Below are positions 40,155 to 57,589 of a stretch of 64,000 nucleotides of DNA, one piece after another. The stretch is from Rubrivivax benzoatilyticus JA2 = ATCC BAA-35 (GTDB lineage Bacteria > Pseudomonadota > Gammaproteobacteria > Burkholderiales > Burkholderiaceae_C). Position 1 is the first letter of the stretch. Each line of letters starts with the position of its first letter. Both the position numbers and the translations under genes were made by a program. A model generated the notes under the pieces. It searched no databases and had not been told where the DNA came from. It worked only from the letters and a program-made list of their open reading frames with translations. The DNA is taken from assembly GCF_000190375.1 (NCBI RefSeq), contig NZ_AEWG01000141.1:1-64000 (forward strand), read 5' to 3'.

Positions 40155-40391
40155 GCGCGCGTCACGCAGACGGCCCGCGCGTGAGGGATTGCCGGCCCGG
40201 CGTTGAGATTTTTCAGCCCCGTGGGGGGCGGCCGATACACGCTGCAACGTGGTGGCCGTTATAAACCGCATGGCACCGCGTGCAGCGTAGGCGCGGTCGC
40301 CATCCACTCCGGTGCGGACCAGGCGCGACAGACGCCGTCCGCAGGCCAGTCTGGCGGGGGCGATCACCCGGTCTCCGCCACGGGAGTTCGG
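40155..40391. other. Upstream region of the hybrid kinase
   Basis: A 237-bp spacer with lower GC between about 40195 and 40275. It includes TTATAA at 40259-40264 that could be a -10 element. No tRNA, small gene or strong hairpin is evident. The kinase frame is open across it from 40203, without good coding character. Confidence 0.4.
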
Positions 40392-44078
<3,687 letters not shown>

Positions 44079-44098: not shown

Positions 44099-44175
44099 GG
44101 GCCGTTAGCTCAGTCGGTTAGAGCAGAGGACTCATAATCCTTTGGTCCGGGGTTCGAGCCCCCGACGGCCTACCA
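44099..44175 (+). tRNA. tRNA with CAU anticodon (Met, or Ile2)
   Basis: A 77-nt tRNA with encoded CCA. Acceptor stem GGGCCGT/ACGGCCT (first pair G-U), D arm CTC/GAG, anticodon stem GAGGA/TCCTT with loop CTCATAA (anticodon CAU), T arm CGGGG/CCCCG, discriminator A. The body (AGAGCAG, GACTCATAATC, TTGGTC) looks more like E. coli ileX, where C34 is modified to lysidine to read AUA, than like elongator tRNA-Met. Identity is therefore open. TAGAAT at 44076-44081, overlapping the kinase stop, may be its -10 element. Confidence 0.93.
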
Positions 44176-45080: not shown

Positions 45081-46370
45081 TCAGGCCGCTTCTTCGACCG
45101 CTTCCACCCCCACCCAGGCCCGGATCTGCGCCAGCTCGTCGGCGTCCAGCACCTTCTGCTCGCGCTCGCACAGGAACTGCATCTGGTTCACCAGCCGCGA
45201 GCCCAGCGTCGGCACGCTGTCCTGGCCCTGGCCGAAGACGTGGCCGTTGAGCTGCATGCCGCGCACCAGGAAGCTGACGTCGCGCTGGCGCACGCGCATG
45301 CCCGCCGTCTCGTGGCAGCGGCGGCAGACCTCGTGCGCGGTGGCCGCGGCCTCGAAGCCGCGTTCGGCCAGCAGCTCCGACAGCGTGCGCAACACGAGCT
45401 GCAGGTCCTGCGGCGCCAGCATCGGCGCGCCGGTCAGCGAGCACACCTCGCGCACGACGGCGAAGGTGGCACCGCGGCCGTGCCAGGGCGACTCCGCGTC
45501 CTGCTCGACGGCCGCGGCCTCGACCTCGTGGCGCGCCGGGTCGACGATGCGCCCCCCCGAACCGCTGATCCACAGCAGCCGCGCCATCCCCAGTGACCGG
45601 AAGAAGGCCTTGAACGTGCCGCCGCCGTTCCAGTTCTCCATGATGTCCGGGTGCTCCTGGCGCAGGCGCGAGGCCAGCATGCCGGCGCTCACCGGCAGCG
45701 CCGACTCGTCGACCGTGGCCCAGATGCGGGTGGCGATCAGGCCCAGTTCGTCGCCGGTGGCGGGGCGCGGCGCCTCGCGCGCCGGCTCGGGCCGCGGCGC
45801 GGCGGCGGCGCGTGCTTCGCCCGTGTCGGCCACGGCTTCTGGCGCCGGCTGCGCCAGCGCCAGCGCGTCGCGCAGGAACACCCGTTCGTCGATCAGCAGG
45901 TCGGCCGAGGCCTGGTAGGCCGCCGACGGGAAACCGATCGCCAGCACCGTGGTGCGGCGGTCGTAGCGGCGCAGCTTGCGCAGCACCGGCGTGAAGTCGG
46001 CGTCGGCCGAGAAGACGATGAACTCGTCGCAGCGGGTCTCGTGCTGCAGCAGGTCGACGATGTCCAGCACCATGTGGATGTCGGTGCTGGTCTTGCCCTG
46101 GCTGGTCACCGGCGGGCAGTCGACGATCTCGAAGCCGGCACGCAGGAAGGCGTGGCGGTAGGTCTGGTACCAGTTCGGGTTCAGGTAGCAGCGGCGCACC
46201 AGCAGCCGGCGGCGCTCGCCGTCCTCGTGCGGCTCGGGCAGTGCCAGAGCGCTGGTCAGCCAGCCGATCCATTCGGAAGGGTGACGCGCGAAACGTTCGG
46301 CGGCGTCGGGCTGCAGCTGGCGCAGCTGCGAAAACACGTTGTCGAAGTCGACGAACAGGGCGCTCTTCAT
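45081..46370 (-). CDS. NYN-domain protein with OST-HTH-like region
   Basis: A 429-aa protein whose first 165 residues are a NYN (PIN-like) nuclease domain. The acidic residues are in LFVDFDNVFSQL, TDIHMVLDIVDLLQH and EFIVFSADADFTPVLRKLRR. After a Pro/Ala-rich linker comes a helical block (LGLIATRIWATVDESALPVS, then LASRLRQEHPDIMENWNGGG) resembling OST-HTH/LOTUS RNA-binding modules. The C-terminal part is unassigned. Predicted RNA-acting enzyme; substrate unknown. Confidence 0.85.
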   Translation of the reverse strand: MKSALFVDFDNVFSQLRQLQPDAAERFARHPSEWIGWLTSALALPEPHEDGERRRLLVRRCYLNPNWYQTYRHAFLRAGFEIVDCPPVTSQGKTSTDIHMVLDIVDLLQHETRCDEFIVFSADADFTPVLRKLRRYDRRTTVLAIGFPSAAYQASADLLIDERVFLRDALALAQPAPEAVADTGEARAAAAPRPEPAREAPRPATGDELGLIATRIWATVDESALPVSAGMLASRLRQEHPDIMENWNGGGTFKAFFRSLGMARLLWISGSGGRIVDPARHEVEAAAVEQDAESPWHGRGATFAVVREVCSLTGAPMLAPQDLQLVLRTLSELLAERGFEAAATAHEVCRRCHETAGMRVRQRDVSFLVRGMQLNGHVFGQGQDSVPTLGSRLVNQMQFLCEREQKVLDADELAQIRAWVGVEAVEEAA

Positions 46371-46551: not shown

Positions 46552-47595
46552 TCAGGCCGTCGCCAGCGCCGCGGGGGTGCGCAGCAAACGGCTGCCGGCA
46601 ACGGCTGCCGCCTCGTCGTCGCCTTCGGTCTCGTGGTCGTGCACGATGTGCGTGCCGGTCTCGCCCATCAGCGCCGGCACCGCGGTCTCCAGGCTGGTGA
46701 TGATCACGCGCCGGCCGCCGGTCTCGAGGAAGCGGATCGCCGCCTCGATCTTTGGCCCCATGCTGCCGGGCGGGAAGTGGCCCTCGGCCAGGTAACGCTT
46801 CATCTCGCTCAGCGAGGCGCGTGCCAGGTCGCGCTGCTGGGGCTGGCCGAAGTGGACGGCGACACGCGGCACGGCGGTCAGGATCATCATGTCGCGGATG
46901 CCCAGCACGTTGGCCATCACCGCCGCCGTCAGGTCCTTGTCGATGACGGCCTCGACGCCGCGGCGGCGGCCGGCCTCGTCGCGCAGCACCGGGATGCCGC
47001 CGCCGCCGCCGGCGATGACGACGGTGCGGCCGCACATCAGCGCCTCGACCAGCGAGACGTCGCAGATGTGCTTGGGCTTGGGCGAGGGCACGACGTAGCG
47101 CCAGCCGCGGCCCGAGTCCTCGCGCACCGTCACGCCCAGCTCGGCGGCCAGTGCCTTGGCCTGGGCTTCGCTGAAGAAGGGGCCGACCGGCTTGGTCGGG
47201 TTGGCGAAGGCCGGGTCGTGGCGGTCGACCTCGACCTGCGTCACCAGCCCGACGACGTGGCGCGGGTTGCCGGCTTCGCGCAGCGCGTTCTCGAAGGCCT
47301 GCGCCAGGATGTAGGCCAGCGCGCCCTGGGTCTGCGCCACCAGGATGTCCAGCGACTGCGGCGCCACGCGGTCCTGCGCCGCGGCGTTGGCCAGCAGCAG
47401 CTTGCCGACCTGCGGGCCGTTGCCGTGCACGACGACGAGCTGGTTGTCGAGTTCGAGCAGCGGCAGCATCGCTCGGGCCGTGGCCGCGGCGATCGCCTTC
47501 TGCTCCTCGGGCGTGCCGCGGCCCTCGGCCGGGTCGAGGGCGTTGCCGCCCACCGCGACGATCAGGCGGCGCGGAACGGAGAACGGTTGGGTCAT
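46552..47595 (-). CDS. arcC: Carbamate kinase
   Basis: Converts carbamoyl phosphate and ADP to ATP plus carbamate. The 347-aa protein has RLIVAVGGNALDPAEGRGTP, VVVHGNGPQVGKLLL, VTQVEVDRHDPAFANPTKPV and VIAGGGGGIPV followed by AVIDKDLTAAVMA, all carbamate kinase signatures. It carries about 30 extra C-terminal residues (from ETEGDDEAAAVAGSRLL) beyond the usual 310-315 aa. Start ATG 47595 with AGGAGC upstream. Divergent from the MFS-FdrA operon, it is the probable ATP-yielding last step for that cluster. Confidence 0.95.
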   Translation of the reverse strand: MTQPFSVPRRLIVAVGGNALDPAEGRGTPEEQKAIAAATARAMLPLLELDNQLVVVHGNGPQVGKLLLANAAAQDRVAPQSLDILVAQTQGALAYILAQAFENALREAGNPRHVVGLVTQVEVDRHDPAFANPTKPVGPFFSEAQAKALAAELGVTVREDSGRGWRYVVPSPKPKHICDVSLVEALMCGRTVVIAGGGGGIPVLRDEAGRRRGVEAVIDKDLTAAVMANVLGIRDMMILTAVPRVAVHFGQPQQRDLARASLSEMKRYLAEGHFPPGSMGPKIEAAIRFLETGGRRVIITSLETAVPALMGETGTHIVHDHETEGDDEAAAVAGSRLLRTPAALATA

Positions 47596-47663
47596 CGCAT
47601 GTGCTCCTGCAGAACGGTCAGTCTTTGCAAAAGCCATTGTCGAAACGCCGATCCCCACGTTCG

Positions 47664-47741
47664 TTCGAATCGGTCTCACAGTGCAATGCCGATCTTTCGA
47701 ATCGCCACGAGGCCCTGAAACCGGCTCTTCCGGGTTTCGAA
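47664..47741. promoter_or_regulatory. Three TTCGAA palindromes in divergent control region
   Basis: The 274-bp AT-richer spacer between carbamate kinase and the first MFS gene holds TTCGAA at 47664-47669, 47696-47701 and 47736-47741. The first two share TTCGAATCG and the third reads TTTCGAACGG. Their position between divergent genes suggests operator sites, possibly for the LysR regulator at 54330. A -10-like GACAAT on the minus strand is at 47636-47641. Confidence 0.4.
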
Positions 47742-47869
47742 CGGTCGCGATTGCATTGTTGAGAGCTGTTTGAAAGTCGCGGAAAACGATGCCTGGCACC
47801 TGCCCTCGGCGGGGTGTCGTGATGACACTGGCTGCGTCGTCAACTGAACGCAGCACAGAGGTAGAAGCA

Positions 47870-49126
47870 ATGTCATCGATCACGACACCGGACCGCGGCC
47901 AGGAGGCCGCGACCGAGCGCAGGGCCGGGATACCCGGCTGGTGGATCACCGTGGCCGTGTTCTGGCTCGGCTGGATCTTCATGTACGCCGACCGCACGAT
48001 CCTCAACCCGGTGATGAAGGACATCCAGACCGAGTTCGGCCTCAGCGCCACGCAGCTCGGCATCATCAGCAGCGCCTTCTTCCTGTCGTACGCGCTGCTG
48101 CAGGTGCCGGCCGGCGTGCTCGGCGACCGCATCGGCCGCAAGAAGGTGCTGGTGCCCGGCTTCCTGCTCTTCGGGCTGTTCACCGCGGTCAGCGGCATGG
48201 CCAGGAGCTTCGCCACCTTCATCGCCGCGCGGGTGGTCACCGGCGCCGGCCAGGGCACCTATTACGGGCCGCAGTACGGCATCGCCGCCGAGCAGATCCC
48301 GGCGCGCAACCGCTCGCTGGGCAGCGCGCTGATCAACTCCGGCATGGCCTTCGGCATCGCGCTCGGGCTGATGGTCTCGTCCTGGGTCGCGCACTCGCTG
48401 GGCTACGGCTGGCGCGCGCCGTTCTTCGTGATGGCCGTGCCGACGGTGGTGATGGCGCTGCTGATCTGGTGGCTGATCAAGGAGAACCCGCGGCCGCTCG
48501 GCGCCCAGGCGCAGGCGCAGTCGAACAAGGCGTCGTTCGTCGCGCTGCTGAAGAACCGCAACCTGCTGGTCACCTACGTGATGGTGTTCTGCTCGCTGTT
48601 CGGCTTCTTCATGATCCTCACCTGGCTGCCGTACTACCTGCAGACCGAGCGCGGCATCCCGGTCAAGGAGATCGGCAACATCAGCTCGCTGGTGGCCTGG
48701 GTGTCGATCCCCGGCGGCCTGCTGTTCGCCCAGGTCTCCGACAAGCTCGGCAAGCGCAAGCCGCTGGTCTTCGTGCTGGTGCCGATCGCCGCGGCCAGCC
48801 TGATCAGCATCGCCTGGCTGCAGGACGTGAACCAGGTCATCGCCGCGATCTGCGTCTACGGCTTCTTCGGCAAGCTGGCGCTGGACCCGGTGCTGATCGC
48901 CACGGTGGCCGACAACACGCCCAAGGAGAGCTACGGCACGGCCTTCGGCATCTTCAATTTCGTCGGCATGAGCTCGTCGATCCTGGCGCCGACGATCGCC
49001 GGCTTCGTGTCCGACGCCACCGGCAGCCTGGCCACCAACTTCTACATTTCGGCCGCCGTGCTCGCGGTCGGGATGATCGGCATGGGCTTCCTGCGCGAAA
49101 CCCCGAAACAGGCCGCGACGGCGTGA
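47870..49126 (+). CDS. MFS transporter, copy 1
   Basis: A 418-aa twelve-helix major facilitator. It starts after a GAGG at ATG 47870 (MSSITTPDRG). The helix 1 region is WWITVAVFWLGWIFMYADRT, with the MFS motif A GDRIGRKKVLVPG between helices 2 and 3 and its repeat SDKLGKRKPLV in the second half. The look is that of the anion-type MFS carriers (ACS family), fitting uptake of a carboxylate. It is first in the operon with FdrA and shares very high identity with copy 2. Confidence 0.93.
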   Translation: MSSITTPDRGQEAATERRAGIPGWWITVAVFWLGWIFMYADRTILNPVMKDIQTEFGLSATQLGIISSAFFLSYALLQVPAGVLGDRIGRKKVLVPGFLLFGLFTAVSGMARSFATFIAARVVTGAGQGTYYGPQYGIAAEQIPARNRSLGSALINSGMAFGIALGLMVSSWVAHSLGYGWRAPFFVMAVPTVVMALLIWWLIKENPRPLGAQAQAQSNKASFVALLKNRNLLVTYVMVFCSLFGFFMILTWLPYYLQTERGIPVKEIGNISSLVAWVSIPGGLLFAQVSDKLGKRKPLVFVLVPIAAASLISIAWLQDVNQVIAAICVYGFFGKLALDPVLIATVADNTPKESYGTAFGIFNFVGMSSSILAPTIAGFVSDATGSLATNFYISAAVLAVGMIGMGFLRETPKQAATA

Positions 49127-49196
49127 CCGGCTTGCTCCGTGCGGGCCGCCGGCCACGGCCGCCCCGGACGGAGCCCCACGCGACGGAGTTCCCCGA

Positions 49197-50441
49197 ATGA
49201 CTGCCCCGATCTGTCCCAAGCCGCTGCCGACCCGCGCGATCGACCGTCGCGTCGGCATCCCGGGCTGGTGGATCACCGTGTTCCTGTTCTGGCTCGGCTG
49301 GATCTTCATGTACGCCGACCGCACCGTGCTGAACCCGGTGATGAAGGACATCCAGACCGAGTTCGGCCTCAGCGCGACGCAGCTCGGCCTGGTCAGCAGC
49401 TCGTTCTTCCTGTCGTACGCGGTGCTGCAGATCCCGGCCGGCGTGCTCGGCGACCGCATCGGCCGCAAGAAAGTGCTGGTGCCCGGCTTCGTGCTGTTCG
49501 GCGTGCTGACGGCGGTGACCGGCGTCGTGCGCTCGTACTGGGAGCTGCTGCTGGCGCGCATCGGCACCGGCGCCGCCGAAGGCACCTACTACGGCCCGCA
49601 GTTCGGCATCAGCGCGGAGCAGATCCCGGCCGCGCACCGCTCGCTGGGCATGGCGCTGATCAACTCGGGCATGGCCTTCGGCATCGCGCTCGGGCTGATG
49701 GCCTCGAGCTGGGTGGCGCACACGCTGGAGCTGGGCTGGCGCACGCCGTTCTATTTCATGGCCGTGCCGACGGTGGTCACCGGGCTGCTGATCGCCTGGC
49801 TGATCAAGGAGAACCCGCGCCGCCCCGGCGCGCTGGCCGAGGCGCACACGCGCTCGTTCACCTCGCTGCTGAGGAACCGCAACCTGCTGGTCACCTACGT
49901 GATGGTGTTCTGCTCGCTGTTCGGCTTCTTCATGATCCTCACCTGGCTGCCGTACTACCTGCAGACCGAACGCGGCATCCCGGTCAAGGAGATCGGCAAC
50001 GTCAGCTCGCTGGTGGCCTGGGTGTCGATCCCCGGCGGCCTGCTGTTCGCGCGCATCTCCGACAAGCTGGGCCGGCGCAAGCCGCTGGTCTTCGTGCTGG
50101 TGCCGATCGCCGTCGCCAGCCTGATCAGCATCGCCTGGCTGCAGGACGTGAACCAGGTGATCGTCGCGATCTGCGTCTACGGCTTCTTCGGCAAGCTGGC
50201 GCTGGACCCGGTGCTGATCGCCACCGTCGCCGACAACGCCCCCGAGGCGCGCTACGGCACGGCCTATGGCATCTACAACTTCGTCGGCATGTGCTCGTCG
50301 ATCGTCGCGCCGACGATCGCCGGCTTCGTCTCCGACGCCACCGGCAGCCTGGCCGCCAACTTCTACATCTCCGCCGCCGTGCTGGCCTTCGGCATGGCGT
50401 GCATGGCCCTGCTGCGCGAGCGCCCCGGCGCCCGCGCCTGA
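49197..50441 (+). CDS. MFS transporter, copy 2
   Basis: A 414-aa paralogue of the preceding gene, 70 bp downstream. It shares the same MFS motif GDRIGRKKVLVPG and long identical stretches such as LVTYVMVFCSLFGFFMILTW. Differences cluster at the N-terminus, in helices 3-6 and at the C-terminus, so the two copies may differ in substrate or regulation. DNA identity is nearly complete around 49876-50049, compatible with recent conversion. FdrA begins 25 bp later. Confidence 0.93.
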   Translation: MTAPICPKPLPTRAIDRRVGIPGWWITVFLFWLGWIFMYADRTVLNPVMKDIQTEFGLSATQLGLVSSSFFLSYAVLQIPAGVLGDRIGRKKVLVPGFVLFGVLTAVTGVVRSYWELLLARIGTGAAEGTYYGPQFGISAEQIPAAHRSLGMALINSGMAFGIALGLMASSWVAHTLELGWRTPFYFMAVPTVVTGLLIAWLIKENPRRPGALAEAHTRSFTSLLRNRNLLVTYVMVFCSLFGFFMILTWLPYYLQTERGIPVKEIGNVSSLVAWVSIPGGLLFARISDKLGRRKPLVFVLVPIAVASLISIAWLQDVNQVIVAICVYGFFGKLALDPVLIATVADNAPEARYGTAYGIYNFVGMCSSIVAPTIAGFVSDATGSLAANFYISAAVLAFGMACMALLRERPGARA

Positions 50442-50465
50442 ACCCGATCCACGAAAGGATTCCCC

Positions 50466-52121
50466 ATGTTGCACTGCTTCATCCTGAAAGGCAGTTTCCA
50501 GGACTCCGTCACCTTGATGGTGCTGTCGCGCGACCTGTCGGCGCTGCCCGGCGTCGTCAAGGCCTCGGTGATGATGGGCACACCCGCCAACAAGGACGTG
50601 TTCCGCGAGACCGGCCTGTGGCACGACACGCTGGACGAGGCCACGCCCAGCGACGTCTGCGTCATCGTCGACTGCGAGGACGCGGCGCGTGCCGCCGCCG
50701 TGCTCGAAGAGCTGAAGACGCGGCTGGCCGACGTCGCCAGGAGCCGGCGCGCCTCGGGCTACCCGGTGGCGCGCAGCTGGCGCCGCGCCCGCCAGCTGGT
50801 GCCCGACGCCAAGGTCGCGCTGATCTCGGTGGCCGGCCACTACGCCGCCGACGTCGCGCGACAGGCGCTGGACGACGGCTGCCACGTGATGATGTTCTCC
50901 GACAACGTGTCGGTCGAAGCCGAGGTCGAGCTCAAGCTTGCGGCGCGCCGCCGCGGCCTGATCGTCATGGGCCCGGACTGCGGCACCTCGGTCATCGGCG
51001 GCGTGCCGCTGGCCTTCGCCAACCGCATGCCCAAGGGGCCGATCGCGGTGATCGGCGCCTCGGGCACCGGCATCCAGGAGATCTGCTCGCAGATCGCCGC
51101 GCGCGGTGCCGGCATCACGCACGCCATCGGCCTCGGCGGCCGCGATCTGTCGGCGGCGGTCGGCGGCATCAGCGCGCTGACGGCGATCGACTTCGTCGCT
51201 GCCGACGCCGCCAGTCGCGTCGTCGTCTTCGTCTCCAAGCCGCCGGCGCCGGAGGTCAAGGCGCGCGTGCTGGCGGCGCTGAAGCTGATGCAGCGGCCGG
51301 TGGTCGCGCTCTTCCTCGGCGACCGCCAGGCCGTGCGCCGCGACGGCAACGTGCACTTCGCACAGACGCTGGACGGCGCCGCGGCGCTGGCGGTGGACCT
51401 GGCCAACGTCGACTCGCAGGCCTCGCACCAGCCTTCGGCCAGCGGCCTGGGCATCTGCGGCCTGTACACCGGCGGCACGCTGGCCGCCGAGGCGGCGCAG
51501 CTGCTGGCCGACGCGCTGGGGCTGCACGCCGACGAGACGCACGCCGAGGGCTACATGCTGCGCAGCGGCGGCCACCGCGTCATCGACCTCGGCGACGACC
51601 TCTACACCCGCGGCCGGCCGCACCCGATGATCGATCCGACGCTGCGCAACGAGATGATCCGCGCGCTGGCCGACGAGCCGACCTACGGCGTGCTGCTGCT
51701 CGACGTCGTGCTCGGCTACGGCGCCAACGCCGACCCGGCCGGCGTCACCGCGCGTGCCGTCGCCGAGATGCGCGCCGGGCGTGGCGGCGCGCCGATCACG
51801 GTCATCGCCACGCTGACCGGCACCGACCAGGACCCGCAGGACCGCGCCAGCCAGGCCGCCAAGCTGGAGGAAGCCGGCATCGTGATCGCCGAGAGCACGC
51901 GCACCGCGGTCGAGCTGGCGCTGCGCCTGGTGCAGCCGCCGGTGGCCGGCATCGGCGCGCCGCCGCCGCTGCTGGCCGCACCGCCGGCGATCGTGAACAT
52001 CGGCCTGCGCGGCTTCGCCGACGAACTGCAGGCCGGCGGCACGAACGTCGTCCATTACCTCTGGGAACCGATCGCGGGCGGCAATCAACGCCTGCAGCGG
52101 CTGGTCGCCGCACTGCAATGA
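50466..52121 (+). CDS. fdrA: FdrA/AllF, oxamic transcarbamylase-type subunit
   Basis: A 551-aa FdrA-family protein related to succinyl-CoA synthetase alpha subunits. It has two CoA-ligase-like regions: ALISVAGHYAADVARQALDD, GLIVMGPDCGTSVIGGVPLA and IAVIGASGTGIQEICSQIAA. A later region contains MIDPTLRNEMIRAL. In E. coli FdrA (AllF, 555 aa) is one of three subunits of oxamic transcarbamylase, which splits oxalurate to oxamate and carbamoyl phosphate. The same three-gene set follows here, so a carbamoyltransferase is likely; substrate unproven. Confidence 0.92.
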   Translation: MLHCFILKGSFQDSVTLMVLSRDLSALPGVVKASVMMGTPANKDVFRETGLWHDTLDEATPSDVCVIVDCEDAARAAAVLEELKTRLADVARSRRASGYPVARSWRRARQLVPDAKVALISVAGHYAADVARQALDDGCHVMMFSDNVSVEAEVELKLAARRRGLIVMGPDCGTSVIGGVPLAFANRMPKGPIAVIGASGTGIQEICSQIAARGAGITHAIGLGGRDLSAAVGGISALTAIDFVAADAASRVVVFVSKPPAPEVKARVLAALKLMQRPVVALFLGDRQAVRRDGNVHFAQTLDGAAALAVDLANVDSQASHQPSASGLGICGLYTGGTLAAEAAQLLADALGLHADETHAEGYMLRSGGHRVIDLGDDLYTRGRPHPMIDPTLRNEMIRALADEPTYGVLLLDVVLGYGANADPAGVTARAVAEMRAGRGGAPITVIATLTGTDQDPQDRASQAAKLEEAGIVIAESTRTAVELALRLVQPPVAGIGAPPPLLAAPPAIVNIGLRGFADELQAGGTNVVHYLWEPIAGGNQRLQRLVAALQ

Positions 52122-52138
52122 CGAAACGGAGCGATTCC

Positions 52139-53404
52139 ATGTACGAAACCATCAACGAAGCCAACGAAGCCGTCATCAACGAGATCAAGCGTGCGCGGCC
52201 CCGCCTCGTCGACGTGCGGCCTGCCGCCGACTGCATCCCGGTGCTGCGCGAAGGCAGGACGCTGCTGCACGCCGGCCCGCCGATCGCCTGGGCCGACATG
52301 ACCGGCCCGATGCAGGGCGCGGTGCTCGGTGCCGCGATGTTCGAAGGCTGGGCGCGCGACGCCGAAGAGGCCGAACGCCTGGCCGCCAGCGGCGAGATTC
52401 GCTTCACGCCCTGCCACGACCATTCGGCCGTCGGCCCGATGGGCGGCATCACCTCGGCATCGATGCCGGTGCTGGTGGTGCTCAACGAGGTCCAGGGCAA
52501 CATGGCCTTCTGCAACCTCAACGAAGGCATCGGCAAGGTGATGCGCTTCGGCGCCTTCGAAGGCGAGGTGCAGACCCGCCTGGCCTGGATGCGCGACGTG
52601 CTCGGGCCGGTGCTGTCGCAGGCGCTGGGCATGGTTCCCGGCGGCATCGACCTGTCGGTGCTGATGGCGCAGGCGATCACGATGGGCGACGAGTTCCACC
52701 AGCGCAACATCGCCGCCTCGGCGCTGCTGCTCAAGCTGCTGGCGCCGGACATCGCCGCCTGCGAGGCCAGCACCCAGCACAAGGAGGAGGTGCTGCGTTT
52801 CCTCGGCCGCACCGACCAGTTCTTCCTCAACGTCGCGATGGCCTATTGCAAGTGCGTGATGGACGCCGGCGCGACGGTCGAGGCCGGCACCATCGTCACC
52901 GCGATGACGCGCAACGGCCGCGACTTCGGCATCCGCGTCAGCGGTACCGGCAAGCGCTGGTTCACGGCGCCGGTCAACACGCCGGCGGGCCTGTTCTTCT
53001 CCGGCTTCAGCCAGGACGACGCCAACCCCGACATCGGCGACTCGGCGATCACCGAGACGCTGGGCATCGGCGGCGCGGCGATGATCGCCGCCCCGGGCGT
53101 CACGCGCTTCGTCGGTGCCGGCGGCTTCAGCGACGCGCTGGAGACCAGCGAGGAGATGCGCGAGATCTACGTCGACAGCTCGCCGATGTTCCAGATCCCG
53201 ACCTGGGACTTCCAGGCCGCGTGTCTGGGGCTGGACGTGCGCCGCGTCGTCGAGACCGGCATCACGCCGGTCATCAACACCGGCATCGCGCACCGCAAGG
53301 CCGGCATCGGCCAGGTCGGCGCCGGCACCGTGCGGCCGCCGCGCGGCTGCTTCGAGAAGGCGCTCGAAGCAGTGGCCGAGACCGTCGGCGTGACGGCCGA
53401 CTGA
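52139..53404 (+). CDS. DUF1116 protein (YlbE/AllG family)
   Basis: A 421-aa DUF1116 protein, counterpart of E. coli YlbE/AllG (419 aa). Recognisable stretches: NEAVINEIKRARPRLVDVRP, FTPCHDHSAVGPMGGITSAS, PVLVVLNEVQGNMAFCNLNE and GGIDLSVLMAQAITMGDEFH. Start ATG 52139 has a GGAG eight bases upstream; ATG 52118 in frame overlaps the fdrA stop and is the alternative. It should form the carbamoyltransferase with FdrA and the DUF2877 protein. The conserved His/Asp/Cys residues may be catalytic, but the mechanism is not settled. Confidence 0.92.
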   Translation: MYETINEANEAVINEIKRARPRLVDVRPAADCIPVLREGRTLLHAGPPIAWADMTGPMQGAVLGAAMFEGWARDAEEAERLAASGEIRFTPCHDHSAVGPMGGITSASMPVLVVLNEVQGNMAFCNLNEGIGKVMRFGAFEGEVQTRLAWMRDVLGPVLSQALGMVPGGIDLSVLMAQAITMGDEFHQRNIAASALLLKLLAPDIAACEASTQHKEEVLRFLGRTDQFFLNVAMAYCKCVMDAGATVEAGTIVTAMTRNGRDFGIRVSGTGKRWFTAPVNTPAGLFFSGFSQDDANPDIGDSAITETLGIGGAAMIAAPGVTRFVGAGGFSDALETSEEMREIYVDSSPMFQIPTWDFQAACLGLDVRRVVETGITPVINTGIAHRKAGIGQVGAGTVRPPRGCFEKALEAVAETVGVTAD

Positions 53405-53454
53405 AGGCCTGGCCCGGGCCCGGCGATGGCGGCGCGACGATCGGACAGCAGATC

Positions 53455-54261
53455 ATGAGTGCCGCCGTTGCCACCCGCGTGCGAGCGCTGGCGCTCAGCG
53501 AGGCCGCGGCGCGTGCGCTGGACGGTCGCGTCGCCACCGTCGCAGCGCTGCACCGCCGCGGCTTCAGCGTCGTCGTGGCGGGCGGCGAGCCGATCTTCGT
53601 CGGCCCGCCGGGCGCCGGGCTGCTGCCGCTGCACGTCGTCGTGCGCCGCGACAGCTTCGAGACGCTGCGGCGCCGGCTCGGCATCGGCGAACGCCTGCGC
53701 TGGGACCTGAGCGCGGCGCGGCGCTGGCAGCTCGGCCTGGGCCGCCGCCATGCGTTGCCCGAGCTGGACGCCGGCGTCGCCCGCGTCGCCGACTGGCTGC
53801 GCTCGCAACCGCCAGCCAACGGCTTCGGCGGCGCCCAGGCGCAGGTGCTGGCGGCCGACGGCCGCCTGCGGCAGGCGCTGCAGGCCGCCGCCGACGGCCC
53901 GACGGCGCCGGCGCTGCTGCAGCTGATCGGCCGCGGCGCCGGCTCGACTCCGGCCGGCGACGACGCGCTGATCGGCGCGCTGGCGCACGGCTGGCTCGTC
54001 GACGGCGCCGACAGCCCGCTGCGCCGGGCGCTGCTGCCCTGGCGCGAGGCGCTCGGGGCGCTGACGACGCCGCTGGGCGCCGGTTATCTGCGCCGCGCGC
54101 TCGACGGTGTCTTCGGCAGCCACCTGATCCAGCTCTGCCGCGCGCTGCCCGCGGCCGGTGAGCGGCTGGACACGCGCGCGCGCCGTGTCGCGCAGCACGG
54201 CGCCAGCTCCGGCATCGACACGCTGCTCGGCTTCGTCGCCGCGCACGAAGGGCGCCGCTAA
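53455..54261 (+). CDS. DUF2877 protein (YlbF/AllH family)
   Basis: A 268-aa DUF2877 protein, matching E. coli YlbF/AllH (271 aa) in size and order. It has the family-type glycine-rich block LIGRGAGSTPAGDDALIGAL and the late ALTTPLGAGYLRRALDGVFG. The start at 53455 follows a 50-bp gap, the largest in the carbamoyltransferase operon. Third predicted subunit; precise role unknown. Confidence 0.88.
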   Translation: MSAAVATRVRALALSEAAARALDGRVATVAALHRRGFSVVVAGGEPIFVGPPGAGLLPLHVVVRRDSFETLRRRLGIGERLRWDLSAARRWQLGLGRRHALPELDAGVARVADWLRSQPPANGFGGAQAQVLAADGRLRQALQAAADGPTAPALLQLIGRGAGSTPAGDDALIGALAHGWLVDGADSPLRRALLPWREALGALTTPLGAGYLRRALDGVFGSHLIQLCRALPAAGERLDTRARRVAQHGASSGIDTLLGFVAAHEGRR

Positions 54262-54329
54262 CATCGACCGACCCGCTCCGACCCCCGTTCAGCGCCGCTG
54301 TCGCGCCGGACGCGACCCGCCGACTTCCC

Positions 54330-55322
54330 GTGTCCCGCTCTCCCAACCTCGACCCCGAAGCGCTGCGCACCTTCGTCGCGGTCGCGCAGCTGCGCAGTTT
54401 TTCCGCCGCCGCCGACCTGCTGCACAAGACGACCTCGGCGATCTCCTACCGCATCAAGTCGCTGGAAGACAGCGCCGGCGTGCCGCTGCTGCAGCGCACC
54501 ACGCGCACCGTGACGCTGACGCCCGCCGGCGAGGTGCTGCTGACGCGCGCCAGCCAGATCTTCGACTGGATGCAGACGCTGCCGCGCGAGCTGGAGCAGG
54601 CCAACGCCGGCGTCGAGTCGGAGCTGGTCATCGTCGTCAACAACCTGCTGCACGACAGTGCCGCGATGTCCGAGCTGCTGGCGCACCTGCACGAGCGTTT
54701 CCCGTACACGACGATCAAGGTGCGTTTCGGCGTCTACATGGGCGTCTGGGACGAGCTGGTGCACAACGGCGGGCGCATCGGCATCGGCGCGCCGGGGTTC
54801 CACACCATCAACGACGACTTCGCCACGTTGCCGCTGGGCGAGATCCGCTGGGTCTTCGTCGTCGCGCCGAGCCATCCGCTGGCGCGCCAGCGCGAACCGC
54901 TGGGCAACGACGCGCTGCGGCCGTATCCGGCGGTCAACGTCGAGGACACCTCGCAGCGCATGAAGAAGCGCACCGCCTGGCGGCTGCCCGGCCAGCAGGA
55001 GCTGCTGGTGCCCGACCTGGCGACCAAGATCGCCTGCCACGAACGCGGGCTGGGCGTCGGTTTCCTGCCGGCGGCGCGCGCGCGTGCGGCGCTACGCGCC
55101 GGCACGCTGGTCGAGCGCACGGTGAGTTATCCGCGCTCGTCGTCGCCGCTGTCGCTGGCCTGGCCGACGCAGGGCGCCGGCGCCGTCACGGCCTACATCC
55201 ACGAGCTGTTCGCCACGCGCGACCGGCTGGCGCTGCCTTTCCTGAGCCCGCTGGTGCCGCCGCCCGAATCCGCGCCGCCGTCCGGCGAGGGCGAAGAGCC
55301 GGAAGCCGCTGGCGTCGCCTGA
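54330..55322 (+). CDS. LysR-family regulator
   Basis: A 330-aa LysR regulator. HTH at residues 5-65 (DPEALRTFVAVAQLRSFSAA, then TTSAISYRIKSLEDSAGVPL), followed by a substrate-binding domain. The start is GTG 54330. It has an Ala/Pro/Glu-rich C-terminal tail. Immediately downstream of the DUF2877 gene and on the same strand, it probably senses the cluster's substrate and controls the 47596-47869 divergent region. Confidence 0.92.
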   Translation: MSRSPNLDPEALRTFVAVAQLRSFSAAADLLHKTTSAISYRIKSLEDSAGVPLLQRTTRTVTLTPAGEVLLTRASQIFDWMQTLPRELEQANAGVESELVIVVNNLLHDSAAMSELLAHLHERFPYTTIKVRFGVYMGVWDELVHNGGRIGIGAPGFHTINDDFATLPLGEIRWVFVVAPSHPLARQREPLGNDALRPYPAVNVEDTSQRMKKRTAWRLPGQQELLVPDLATKIACHERGLGVGFLPAARARAALRAGTLVERTVSYPRSSSPLSLAWPTQGAGAVTAYIHELFATRDRLALPFLSPLVPPPESAPPSGEGEEPEAAGVA

Positions 55323-55550: not shown

Positions 55551-57287
55551 TCAGAAGGTCTGCCAGTCGTCGTCGGCGGTCTCGGCCTTGGCGGTCGTGA
55601 GCGGCGCCGCCGCGGCGACCGGCGCCGGGCGCACCGCGGCCGGACGCGGCGCTGCCGGGCGGCGTGAGGGGGCTGCCGTCGGTGTCGTCACCGCCGGTGC
55701 CACGGTCGCCACCACCGGCGGCGTCGGCGCCACCGCGGGCGCCGCGGCCGTTCGGCCGGCGACGCGGAACACCGCCACGGCGTCGACCAGCTGGCGTGCC
55801 TGGGTGCGAAGGCTCTCGGCGGCGGCGGCGCTCTCCTCGACCAGCGCGGCGTTCTGCTGCGTCGCCTGGTCCATCTGCGCCACGGCTTCGCCGACCTGGG
55901 CGACACCGTCGCTCTGCTCGGCGCTGGCGCTGCTGATCTCGCCGACGATGTCGGCCACGCGGCGGATCGACGCCAGCACGTCCTGCATCTTCGCGCCGGC
56001 CTGATGGACCAGCGCATTGCCGCTGTCCACGCGTTCGACGCTGGTGCCGATCAGCGACTTGATCTCGCGTGCCGCCTCGGCCGAGCGCTGCGCCAGGATG
56101 CGCACCTCGCCGGCGACGACGGCGAAGCCGCGGCCCTGCTCGCCGGCACGCGCCGCCTCGACGGCGGCGTTGAGCGCCAGGATGTTGGTCTGGAACGCGA
56201 TGCCGTCGATGACGTTGATGATCTCGGTGATGCGGCGCGAACTCTCGCTGATGCCGTCCATCGTCTGCACGACCTGGCCGACCATCTGCCCGCCTTCGGT
56301 GGCCACGGCGCTGGCCGCGGCGGCCAGCTGGTTGGCCTGCATCGCGTTGTCGGCGTTCTGGCGCACGGTGGCGTTGAGCTCCTCCATTGACGCGGCGGTC
56401 TGCTGCAGCGCGCTGGCCTGCTGCTCGGTGCGCGCCGACAGGTCGGCGTTGCCGTGCGCGATCTGGTGGCTGGCGGTGGCCACGCCGTCGGCCGACTCGC
56501 GCACCTCGGCGACGATGCGTGCCAGGCTGGCCTGCATGCCGGCCAGGGCCTGCAGCAGGCGGGCGGTCTCGTCGCGGCCCTCGGCGACGATGGTCGCCGA
56601 CAGGTCGCCGGCGCCGATCGCTTCGGCGGTGCGCACGGCGCGTTCGATCGGCCGCGTGATCGACCGCGTCGCGACGATGGCGAAGCCGGCGCCCAGCAGC
56701 GTGGCCAGCAGCGCGCCGATGGCGATCGTCCACTGGCTGCGTTCGGTCGCCGCGGCGAGCCCGGCCTGGCTGGCCTCCAGCAGCTCCTGCGAATGCGCGG
56801 CCACCGCGTCCAGCGCCTTCTGGTAGTCCTGGGCCACCGGCAGCAGCAGGGTGTCGACGTCGGCATACACCGACTCGCCGCGTTCGACCCGCTCGTTGAG
56901 CTCGCGGCGCACGTCGGTGTAGCGCACGCGCACGTCGGCGACCTTGGCGATCAGCGCCTTGCCTTCGGCGTCGTCGACCATCGCCACCAGCGCCTTGTGC
57001 ACCACCGCGGTCTCGGTCGAGATCTGCTCGACGTCCTGCTTCATCTGGGCCTGCAGCGCCGGGTCGGAGCTCTTCAGCGAGGCCGAGACCTTGGTCCAGC
57101 TGATGCGGAGGTTGGTCGCCCACTGGCTGGCGAGCTTGCTGCGCTGCTCGTCCTTCTGCACGATGGCCTCGCTGGCGGCGCGCAGCTCGCCGAGTTGCCA
57201 GATGGCCGCCGCCGCGACGGCGACGGTGATCGTCAACACGAGCCCGAAGGCCAGTCCGAGGCGGGCGCCGATGCGCAATTGGTTCAT
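55551..57287 (-). CDS. Methyl-accepting chemotaxis protein
   Basis: A 578-aa chemoreceptor. N-terminal membrane helix ([20 protein letters not shown]), a roughly 160-residue four-helix-bundle periplasmic sensor, a second membrane helix ([20 protein letters not shown]), HAMP ([20 protein letters not shown]), then the signalling hairpin with its tip ([20 protein letters not shown]). The last five residues, DWQTF, match the NWETF-type pentapeptide docking site for CheR/CheB, so it is probably a full, adaptation-competent receptor. Start 57287 chosen for the membrane-helix N-terminus. Ligand unknown. Confidence 0.94.
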
Positions 57288-57589
57288 GCTGCTCCAGAAA
57301 TGCTCGGTGAACGGCGTGAGCGTCGACTGGCGGACGCCGCAACCACTGCCTTCGGTATCGGCGCCGCCTTGACGCACTTCATGCGCGCGGACCGAAGTGG
57401 GGGTCGAGCGTGAATTCCTGCACGCCCGAAATCCACGAAAAGCATGCAGTCAATGAAAACGCAATTGCTTGCGGTGGCGTTGTGGCTCGCGATGCTTGAG
57501 CAATGTCATGCGATGCAAGCGGGAATCCATGATGTCCTCGGCGCAGCCGAGCGCGTACCGTGTCCGCGTCGGAACCTGCGGAGGTGCCC
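57288..57589. other. Divergent promoter region, chemoreceptor and CBS gene
   Basis: A 302-bp spacer with an AT-richer middle (57430-57520). It holds the sigma-28-like element for the chemoreceptor and a GGAGG ribosome-binding site for the CBS gene just before 57590. No additional gene or RNA is apparent. Confidence 0.5.
57355..57381 (-). promoter_or_regulatory. Sigma-28 (FliA)-like promoter of the chemoreceptor
   Basis: On the minus strand TGAA (57381-57378) is followed after exactly 15 bp by GCCGATAC (57362-57355), close to the FliA consensus TAAA-N15-GCCGATAA. It lies 68 bp before the chemoreceptor ATG. This fits flagellar-regulon control of chemoreceptors. Confidence 0.55.

Follow-up and report, generated by a model that had tools for sequence, protein, structure and literature searches.

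What would a bacterium do with oxamic transcarbamylase (OXTCase) at a locus that has no other allantoin genes around it? The question is raised by a stretch of 64,000 nucleotides from Rubrivivax benzoatilyticus JA2 (contig NZ_AEWG01000141.1, positions 1 to 64,000), referred to here as the window. Translation and family models place at positions 46552-55322 a divergent carbamate kinase gene, two genes for carriers of the major facilitator superfamily (MFS), the genes allF, allG, and allH in that order, and a gene for a LysR-type regulator. The OXTCase genes received their names only in 2024, when they were placed at the end of the anaerobic route for allantoin use in Escherichia coli. Purification of the AllFGH proteins of that species has shown them to be the enzyme, and their operon also contains the kinase gene (PMC11326118). 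We consider it probable that the window's locus is a stand-alone oxalurate utilization cassette, which would convert imported oxalurate to ATP with no need for the allantoin pathway. The cassette is real and recurring; its novelty lies in the packaging, and the enzyme is already known. We found no description of an MFS-AllFGH-AllS cassette in searches of open-licence PMC text.

Identity of the enzyme, its kinase, and its regulator

The initial annotation of this DNA had assigned FdrA, DUF1116, and DUF2877 proteins to the three OXTCase subunits by size and order, and the family models bear this out. AllF (50466-52121, + strand) scores 776 bits with the NCBIfam FdrA model (cut-off 433), AllG (52118-53404, + strand) scores 327 bits with the Pfam AllG model (cut-off 27), and AllH (53455-54261, + strand) scores 83 bits with the Pfam AllH model (cut-off 25). 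The subunits have 551, 428, and 268 residues, which fits the 555, 419, and 271 residues of their E. coli counterparts. The reading frames of allF and allG overlap by four bases, and an inner ATG of allG at position 52139 may be the conserved start. Identity to the E. coli K-12 proteins is 55% for AllF, 68% for AllG, and 29% for AllH, and there are solved relatives of AllF (3dmy) and AllG (3clq).

Residue conservation bears on the substrate. In 40 loci that have allantoin genes, 154 columns of AllF and 201 columns of AllG are at least 95% one residue, and the window keeps 147 and 194 of these, respectively. We called a residue diagnostic if it is fixed at this level in the 40 loci and occurs at most once in an outgroup of 10 loci, consisting of more distant FdrA/DUF1116 sets known by sequence only. 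The window retains 38 of the 41 diagnostic residues (14 of 16 in AllF and 24 of 25 in AllG). To our knowledge, the E. coli enzyme is the only proven OXTCase within this reference set. Because of the identity of AllF and AllG to the E. coli subunits and the retention of the diagnostic residues, the AllFGH proteins of the window are most likely OXTCase as already known, with oxalurate as the substrate. The same retention makes less likely the suggestion, also made in the initial annotation, that the substrate is another N-carbamoyl compound.

The carbamate kinase, which is encoded on the - strand at positions 46552-47595, would fill the role of AllK. It scores 331 bits with the NCBIfam model PRK12352 (cut-off 266) and 348 bits with the arcC equivalog, slightly below the cut-off of 358 for that model. 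The protein is 38% identical to E. coli AllK and 75-80% identical to the kinases of five sister loci (L088, L089, L091, L092, and L097). At the other end of the cassette, the closing gene (54330-55322, + strand), first described only as LysR, can be named more exactly. Its product matches the NCBIfam AllS equivalog with 402 bits (cut-off 372) and is 49% identical to AllS, which activates this operon in E. coli. The AllS model was also applied to eight other loci, where it exceeded its cut-off in five and fell under it in three, with AllS still the best match. By sequence, then, the LysR protein is an AllS, which places the cluster among the kin of the known AllS regulon. In the 330 bases before position 47864, which include the divergent region between the kinase gene and the first carrier gene (47596-47863, no strand assigned), no exact inverted repeat with arms of at least 7 and a spacer of 0 to 9 was found, in a search that used no AllS matrix. 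A TTTCGAA repeat was considered as an operator and rejected: its three copies in the window, two of them in the divergent region, compare with 1.33 expected, and 18 of 100 shuffles equal this count.

In the proposed mechanism, AllS would turn on the cassette genes and one or both MFS carriers would import oxalurate (carbamoyl-oxamate), perhaps in exchange for waste oxamate. AllFGH would convert oxalurate and inorganic phosphate to oxamate and carbamoyl phosphate, and the kinase would use carbamoyl phosphate and ADP to form ATP and carbamate. The carbamate would decompose to ammonia and CO2, for a net yield of one ATP and one ammonia per oxalurate. In this scheme the enzyme set and regulator are identified from their sequences, and the reaction and its products are expected from the behavior of the E. 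coli enzyme, while we infer the transported substrate, the direction of transport, the exchange for oxamate, and the control by AllS. OXTCase is reversible, and assays of the E. coli enzyme followed the reverse reaction (PMC11326118), which would agree with a set that runs backward to make oxalurate or to store or detoxify carbamoyl phosphate. However, AllS, the kinase partner, and the carriers point to catabolism, and the E. coli enzyme has a low affinity for oxamate, with a KM of 36.9 mM given in the same source. We therefore regard operation in reverse as very improbable.

Recurrence of the cassette with a carrier

The two carrier genes lead the genes on the + strand, and they, the divergent kinase, and the closing LysR gene all lie where they were first annotated. 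Carrier 1 is encoded at positions 47864-49126 (+ strand; Pfam MFS_1, 266 bits), where the frame is open from an ATG at 47789 and the start was picked by eye, and carrier 2 is encoded at 49197-50441 (+ strand; Pfam MFS_1, 240 bits). The best NCBIfam subfamily for these proteins is TIGR00893 (D-galactonate transporter), with scores of 201 and 203 bits that are far below the cut-off of 395. We take this subfamily to be of the anion:cation symporter kind. Neither carrier scored above the cut-off of any substrate-specific curated model. On a tree of MFS proteins the two carriers are sisters, with 80% identity over 401 columns, which marks their genes as a local tandem duplication. The pairing of two carriers had been thought to help make the system distinct. 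We rejected the idea of a meaningful pair, because each carrier is the nearest relative of the other and a single MFS gene is present at 17 enteric loci with this gene order.

These loci come from species genomes that were scanned with an alignment of AllG, which gave 304 confirmed relatives. The best 80 of the 304 were kept as loci, and shares among them consequently describe near relatives only. The gene order and strands of the window, with one MFS gene, are found at 17 of the 80 loci, from Citrobacter, Pseudocitrobacter, Trabulsiella, Yokenella, Cedecea, Buttiauxella, Enterobacter, Entomohabitans, and Limnobaculum. This is more than expected by chance and supports the earlier view of a self-contained cluster, which recurs as a unit together with a carrier. 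At 41 of the 80 loci, none of AllA, AllB, AllC, AllD, AllE, AllW, or Gcl is within reach, defined as at least 45% identity within up to 10 kb on each side, or less at contig ends. An MFS gene at least 42% identical to that of the window is present at 35 of these 41 loci.

Phylogeny provides a view of how this arrangement arose. We calculated a quick tree of AllF and AllG together (75 rows, with SH-aLRT support only and with long-branch warnings). When genomic context was divided into four classes, the tree required 16 changes compared to 38 in shuffles, showing that context is clustered, yet loci that have allantoin genes nearby are interspersed with loci that do not (Proteus and Wohlfahrtiimonas counted among the latter). 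The window falls in a starred 11-row clade from Beta- and Alphaproteobacteria that lacks nearby allantoin genes. The pattern is easiest to explain by a reaction that remained unchanged as feeder genes were gained and lost, and the tree supports the identification of the subunits as OXTCase. Of the 61 rows of the MFS tree, 16 form a clade adjoining allC, and 21 form a group of carriers encoded upstream of allF within cassettes (support 94, not starred). There are also a group found mainly behind allK and a small group from Duodenibacillus. The 21-row group holds both copies from the window. Carriers from Proteus and Wohlfahrtiimonas fall in another group, and Duodenibacillus loci have two MFS carriers that are unlike each other. 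The 16-row clade beside allC (L106, L112, L115, L117, L126, L139, and others) is a candidate allantoate or ureide carrier in its own right. The window shares gene order, strands, and MFS tree group with the enteric cassettes and with three E. coli cassettes, but differs from them in having two MFS genes rather than one and in belonging to a separate AllF and AllG clade.

The E. coli cassettes were found with the cassette of Citrobacter youngae, which is matched over at least 80% of its length and at ~79% identity in 3 of 5426 E. coli genomes. Three more genomes match its ylbE part only. The surroundings were inspected in two of the three genomes. In E. coli 23CRST013 the cassette lies amid broken insertion sequences, and an integrase gene and tRNA-Phe are ~5 to 7 kb away. 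In E. coli CM2 the same cassette lies beside IS66 and IS4 remnants. Strain 23CRST013 also has the ordinary all cluster, which is complete from allS through allK but has its uracil/xanthine transporter gene split by IS1. As this strain already possesses OXTCase and the kinase, the cassette adds a carrier and separate control, and the double set is the clearest hint that the cassette matters for its carrier.

Other signs of mobility were considered and rejected. Three plasmid hits (H2, H7, and H8) are not mobile cassettes, because ordinary all clusters lie on them. An AllG match is present in 36 of the 399 genomes searched in the taxonomic order of the window. Odd base composition fails as a sign of recent arrival, with a gene-by-gene GC content of 0.67-0.79 across the cassette against 0.72 before it and 0.70 after it, yet AllG is found in none of the 11 other genomes searched in the window's family. 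A clean empty site in relatives was also rejected: the NYN-domain gene that flanks the cassette is present in 2 others of the 25 genomes searched in the family, and neither keeps the flanking order. The AllF and AllG matches at locus L059 (9309-11748) and the AllF match at locus L050 (10959-12357) are fragmented, reflecting frameshifts, decay, or assembly errors.

Possible sources of oxalurate

The window has in common with the E. coli allFGHK operon the three subunits, the order F-G-H, AllS, and the kinase role (PMC11326118; PMC12535856). It is unlike that operon in that its kinase gene is divergent, two MFS genes are added, and allS is inside the cassette. When 13 proteins from the E. coli allantoin region were searched against the window (E value 1e-4), the only matches were AllS, AllF, AllG, AllH, and AllK. 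The same 13 proteins gave no match in the rest of the contig at 1e-8, where the LysR protein of the window as a query found one weak LysR match. Unlike the E. coli ALL cluster, the window and the remaining contig therefore have no match to E. coli AllA, AllB, AllC, AllD, AllE, AllW, or Gcl. The initial annotation was right that allantoin genes are not visible here as far as the window and contig are concerned, but this does not extend to the genome, where contig C125 has urate-pathway genes.

On contig C125, curated cut-offs are exceeded by the two subunits of xanthine dehydrogenase, by hydroxyisourate (HIU) hydrolase, and by OHCU decarboxylase. The OHCU decarboxylase (L170, 7301-9070) is fused to an allantoate-amidohydrolase-like M20 domain that scores 467 bits, just below the cut-off of 479. 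The urate cluster also encodes a urate oxidase and a polysaccharide-deacetylase-family protein, which we take to be PuuD and PuuE, the latter an allantoinase. An AllC-like gene on contig C161 scores 300 bits against a cut-off of 598, the best match to the AllC model in the genome, and Proteus genes score alike. The best match to the allantoinase model TIGR03178 in the genome is 182 bits, below the cut-off of 358. The genome search for allantoinase and allantoate amidohydrolase that had been proposed as a check thus gives curated-model matches under cut-off, together with the PuuE-like protein and amidohydrolase-like domain on C125. The urate pathway led us to reject the idea of a genome without purine breakdown. 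It had also been argued that a full allantoin pathway elsewhere would make the locus part of the known pathway; what is found goes part of the way, being the upper urate pathway on C125, with no familiar oxalurate-making enzyme.

The presence of these genes suggests another account, in which the cassette is the tail of the organism's own purine breakdown. Urate would pass to allantoin, allantoate, and ureidoglycine or ureidoglycolate by way of genes on other contigs, an unrecognized enzyme would form oxalurate, AllFGH and the kinase would complete the route, and the MFS carriers would export oxamate. The C125 urate pathway and the AllC-like gene on C161 are consistent with this account, as is the position of oxamate as a dead end in the E. 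coli network (PMC3781023). In contrast, the window's genome has no match at any level to the AllD/Ldh_2 family and no match to ureidoglycolate lyase. Ureidoglycine-glyoxylate transaminase provides a second route to oxalurate. No candidate for this enzyme was found among the six Aminotran_5 matches in the genome: five were inspected by eye, three being cysteine desulfurase-like, one SerC-like, and one epimerase-like, and the top match (491 bits) was taken as a desulfurase by its score alone. The cassette is also present in two Duodenibacillus genomes (G110 and G066) that have no Ldh_2 match and only partial matches to the allantoinase model. We consider it unlikely that the cassette serves as the tail of purine breakdown. 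With neither familiar oxalurate-making enzyme found, oxalurate would come from outside the cell, as in the stand-alone cassette, or be made by an enzyme that is not recognized.

Direct uptake of oxalurate can also be considered across genomes. A genome-wide search covered 36 genomes with no upstream gene near allFG and three with allantoin genes nearby. The 36 comprise 33 of the 41 loci described above (L118, L146, L149, L154, L159, and L163-L165 being outside the search) together with G000, G134, and G265. AllD (ureidoglycolate dehydrogenase) was over its cut-off in all three genomes with allantoin genes nearby and in 5 of the 36 (three Proteus and two Wohlfahrtiimonas), but in none of the other 31, including the window's genome. 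Among these 31, AllC was over cut-off in none, allantoinase in one (Vibrio), and AllA (ureidoglycolate lyase) in two (Vibrio and Pseudomonas). Direct oxalurate uptake, as predicted from the cassette, fits this absence of AllD over cut-off from the window's genome and from 31 of the 36.

Several observations weigh against a stand-alone cassette that imports oxalurate. The division into 31 and 5 genomes was made after the result was known, with the five Proteus and Wohlfahrtiimonas genomes set aside. The 31 genomes amount to about four lineages (the window's clade, the enteric clade, one Vibrio, and one Pseudomonas), 17 of them are from one enteric clade, and several are metagenome-assembled genomes of unstated completeness. 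Matches to the AllD model below its cut-off occur in 21 of the 31 (best 231 bits compared to 496), and thus an unlike dehydrogenase is possible there. In the Vibrio genome (G424), a single contig carries genes for allantoinase, AllA, and an AllC-like protein. The models used describe the E. coli-type pathway, and because the urate-oxidase/PuuE-type pathway was searched for in the window's genome only, and is present there, the other 30 genomes may have one too. MFS relatives are also encoded behind allK in clusters where AllD is present and oxalurate import is not needed, an arrangement that favors the cassette as the tail of purine breakdown. Finally, AllS binding in E. coli was unaffected by oxalurate (PMC12535856), at odds with a simple model of control.

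Variant loci and related systems

A further point on the same side comes from the sister loci nearest to the window by tree path (L088, L089, L091, and L097), which have no MFS match and instead have a cytosine-deaminase-like amidohydrolase, scoring below the cut-offs of those models, beside AllG. The three of these that reach far enough upstream (L088, L091, and L097) have a Liv-like ABC transporter, which was named by eye. These neighbors indicate that the imported compound may be a precursor. In two Duodenibacillus loci an amidase and a FAH-family protein are inserted between the carriers and AllF, and distant plasmid sets of FdrA, DUF1116, and carbamate kinase sit with ring-opening amidohydrolases. 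Parabanic acid, a singlet-oxygen product of urate, hydrolyzes to oxaluric acid at neutral pH (PMC5703782). Together, these observations would suit an enzyme that has shifted to another ureido acid, or a carrier that imports a cyclic or amide precursor, such as parabanate, that is opened to oxalurate. For the window we find this quite unlikely, as the diagnostic residues and AllS are retained and no such accessory enzyme is beside the cassette. The variant loci look like different feeders onto one core.

The plasmid sets mentioned above are on conjugative plasmids (L207, 7983-17211; L208, 5282-14071; L209, 8983-19503), which are Aminobacter pSR8 and two Klebsiella plasmids, with allophanate hydrolase nearby in two of the three. 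These sets are possibly an ATP-yielding route of the cyanurate or barbiturate type. An FdrA match of any kind was found in 162 records of the plasmid collection. Distant FdrA/DUF1116 loci of the same order (L049, L054, and L061) encode a Liv-like binding protein and permease that are 71-84% identical to those of L091.

An OXTCase and kinase without known upstream genes have also been described in ammonia-oxidizing archaea and comammox Nitrospira, for which the authors propose that allFGHK serves in the use of purine products from other organisms (PMC12625717). Unlike the window, the archaeal and comammox genes sit with biuret/triuret genes and, in some cases, with BmpA-NupABC or codB transporters, and the portion of PMC12625717 consulted does not mention MFS carriers or AllS for them.

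The genes on either side of the window's cassette look unrelated to it, with an NYN-domain gene at 45081-46370 and a chemoreceptor gene at 55551-57377. The chemoreceptor (4HB sensor, HAMP, and MCP) is oriented toward the cassette and may sense the cassette's substrate. A large hybrid sensor kinase with solute-binding, PAS, receiver, and Hpt domains is encoded at 40203-44078, adjoining a tRNA gene at 44099-44172.

In the arginine and agmatine deiminase pathways, a carrier or antiporter is combined with phosphorolysis by a transcarbamylase and ATP formation by carbamate kinase, and the cassette would work in the same way. It differs from these pathways in using its substrate in one step and in its transcarbamylase, since OXTCase has no similarity to the known transcarbamylase family (PMC11326118). 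A bolder proposal, which we find possible but doubtful, is that an oxalurate/oxamate exchanger, OXTCase, and kinase constitute a one-substrate fermentation that yields ATP and ammonia from imported oxalurate. It would do with a ureide what the arginine deiminase pathway does with arginine, and it would spread as a mobile unit that is not tied to the breakdown of allantoin.

The E. coli strain with both versions of the system offers a natural comparison, and the MFS protein of the cassette is a candidate transporter of either oxalurate or oxamate. The recurrence of a carrier-bearing version apart from the allantoin pathway suggests that oxalurate is a nutrient that is passed between organisms or formed by the oxidation of urate.

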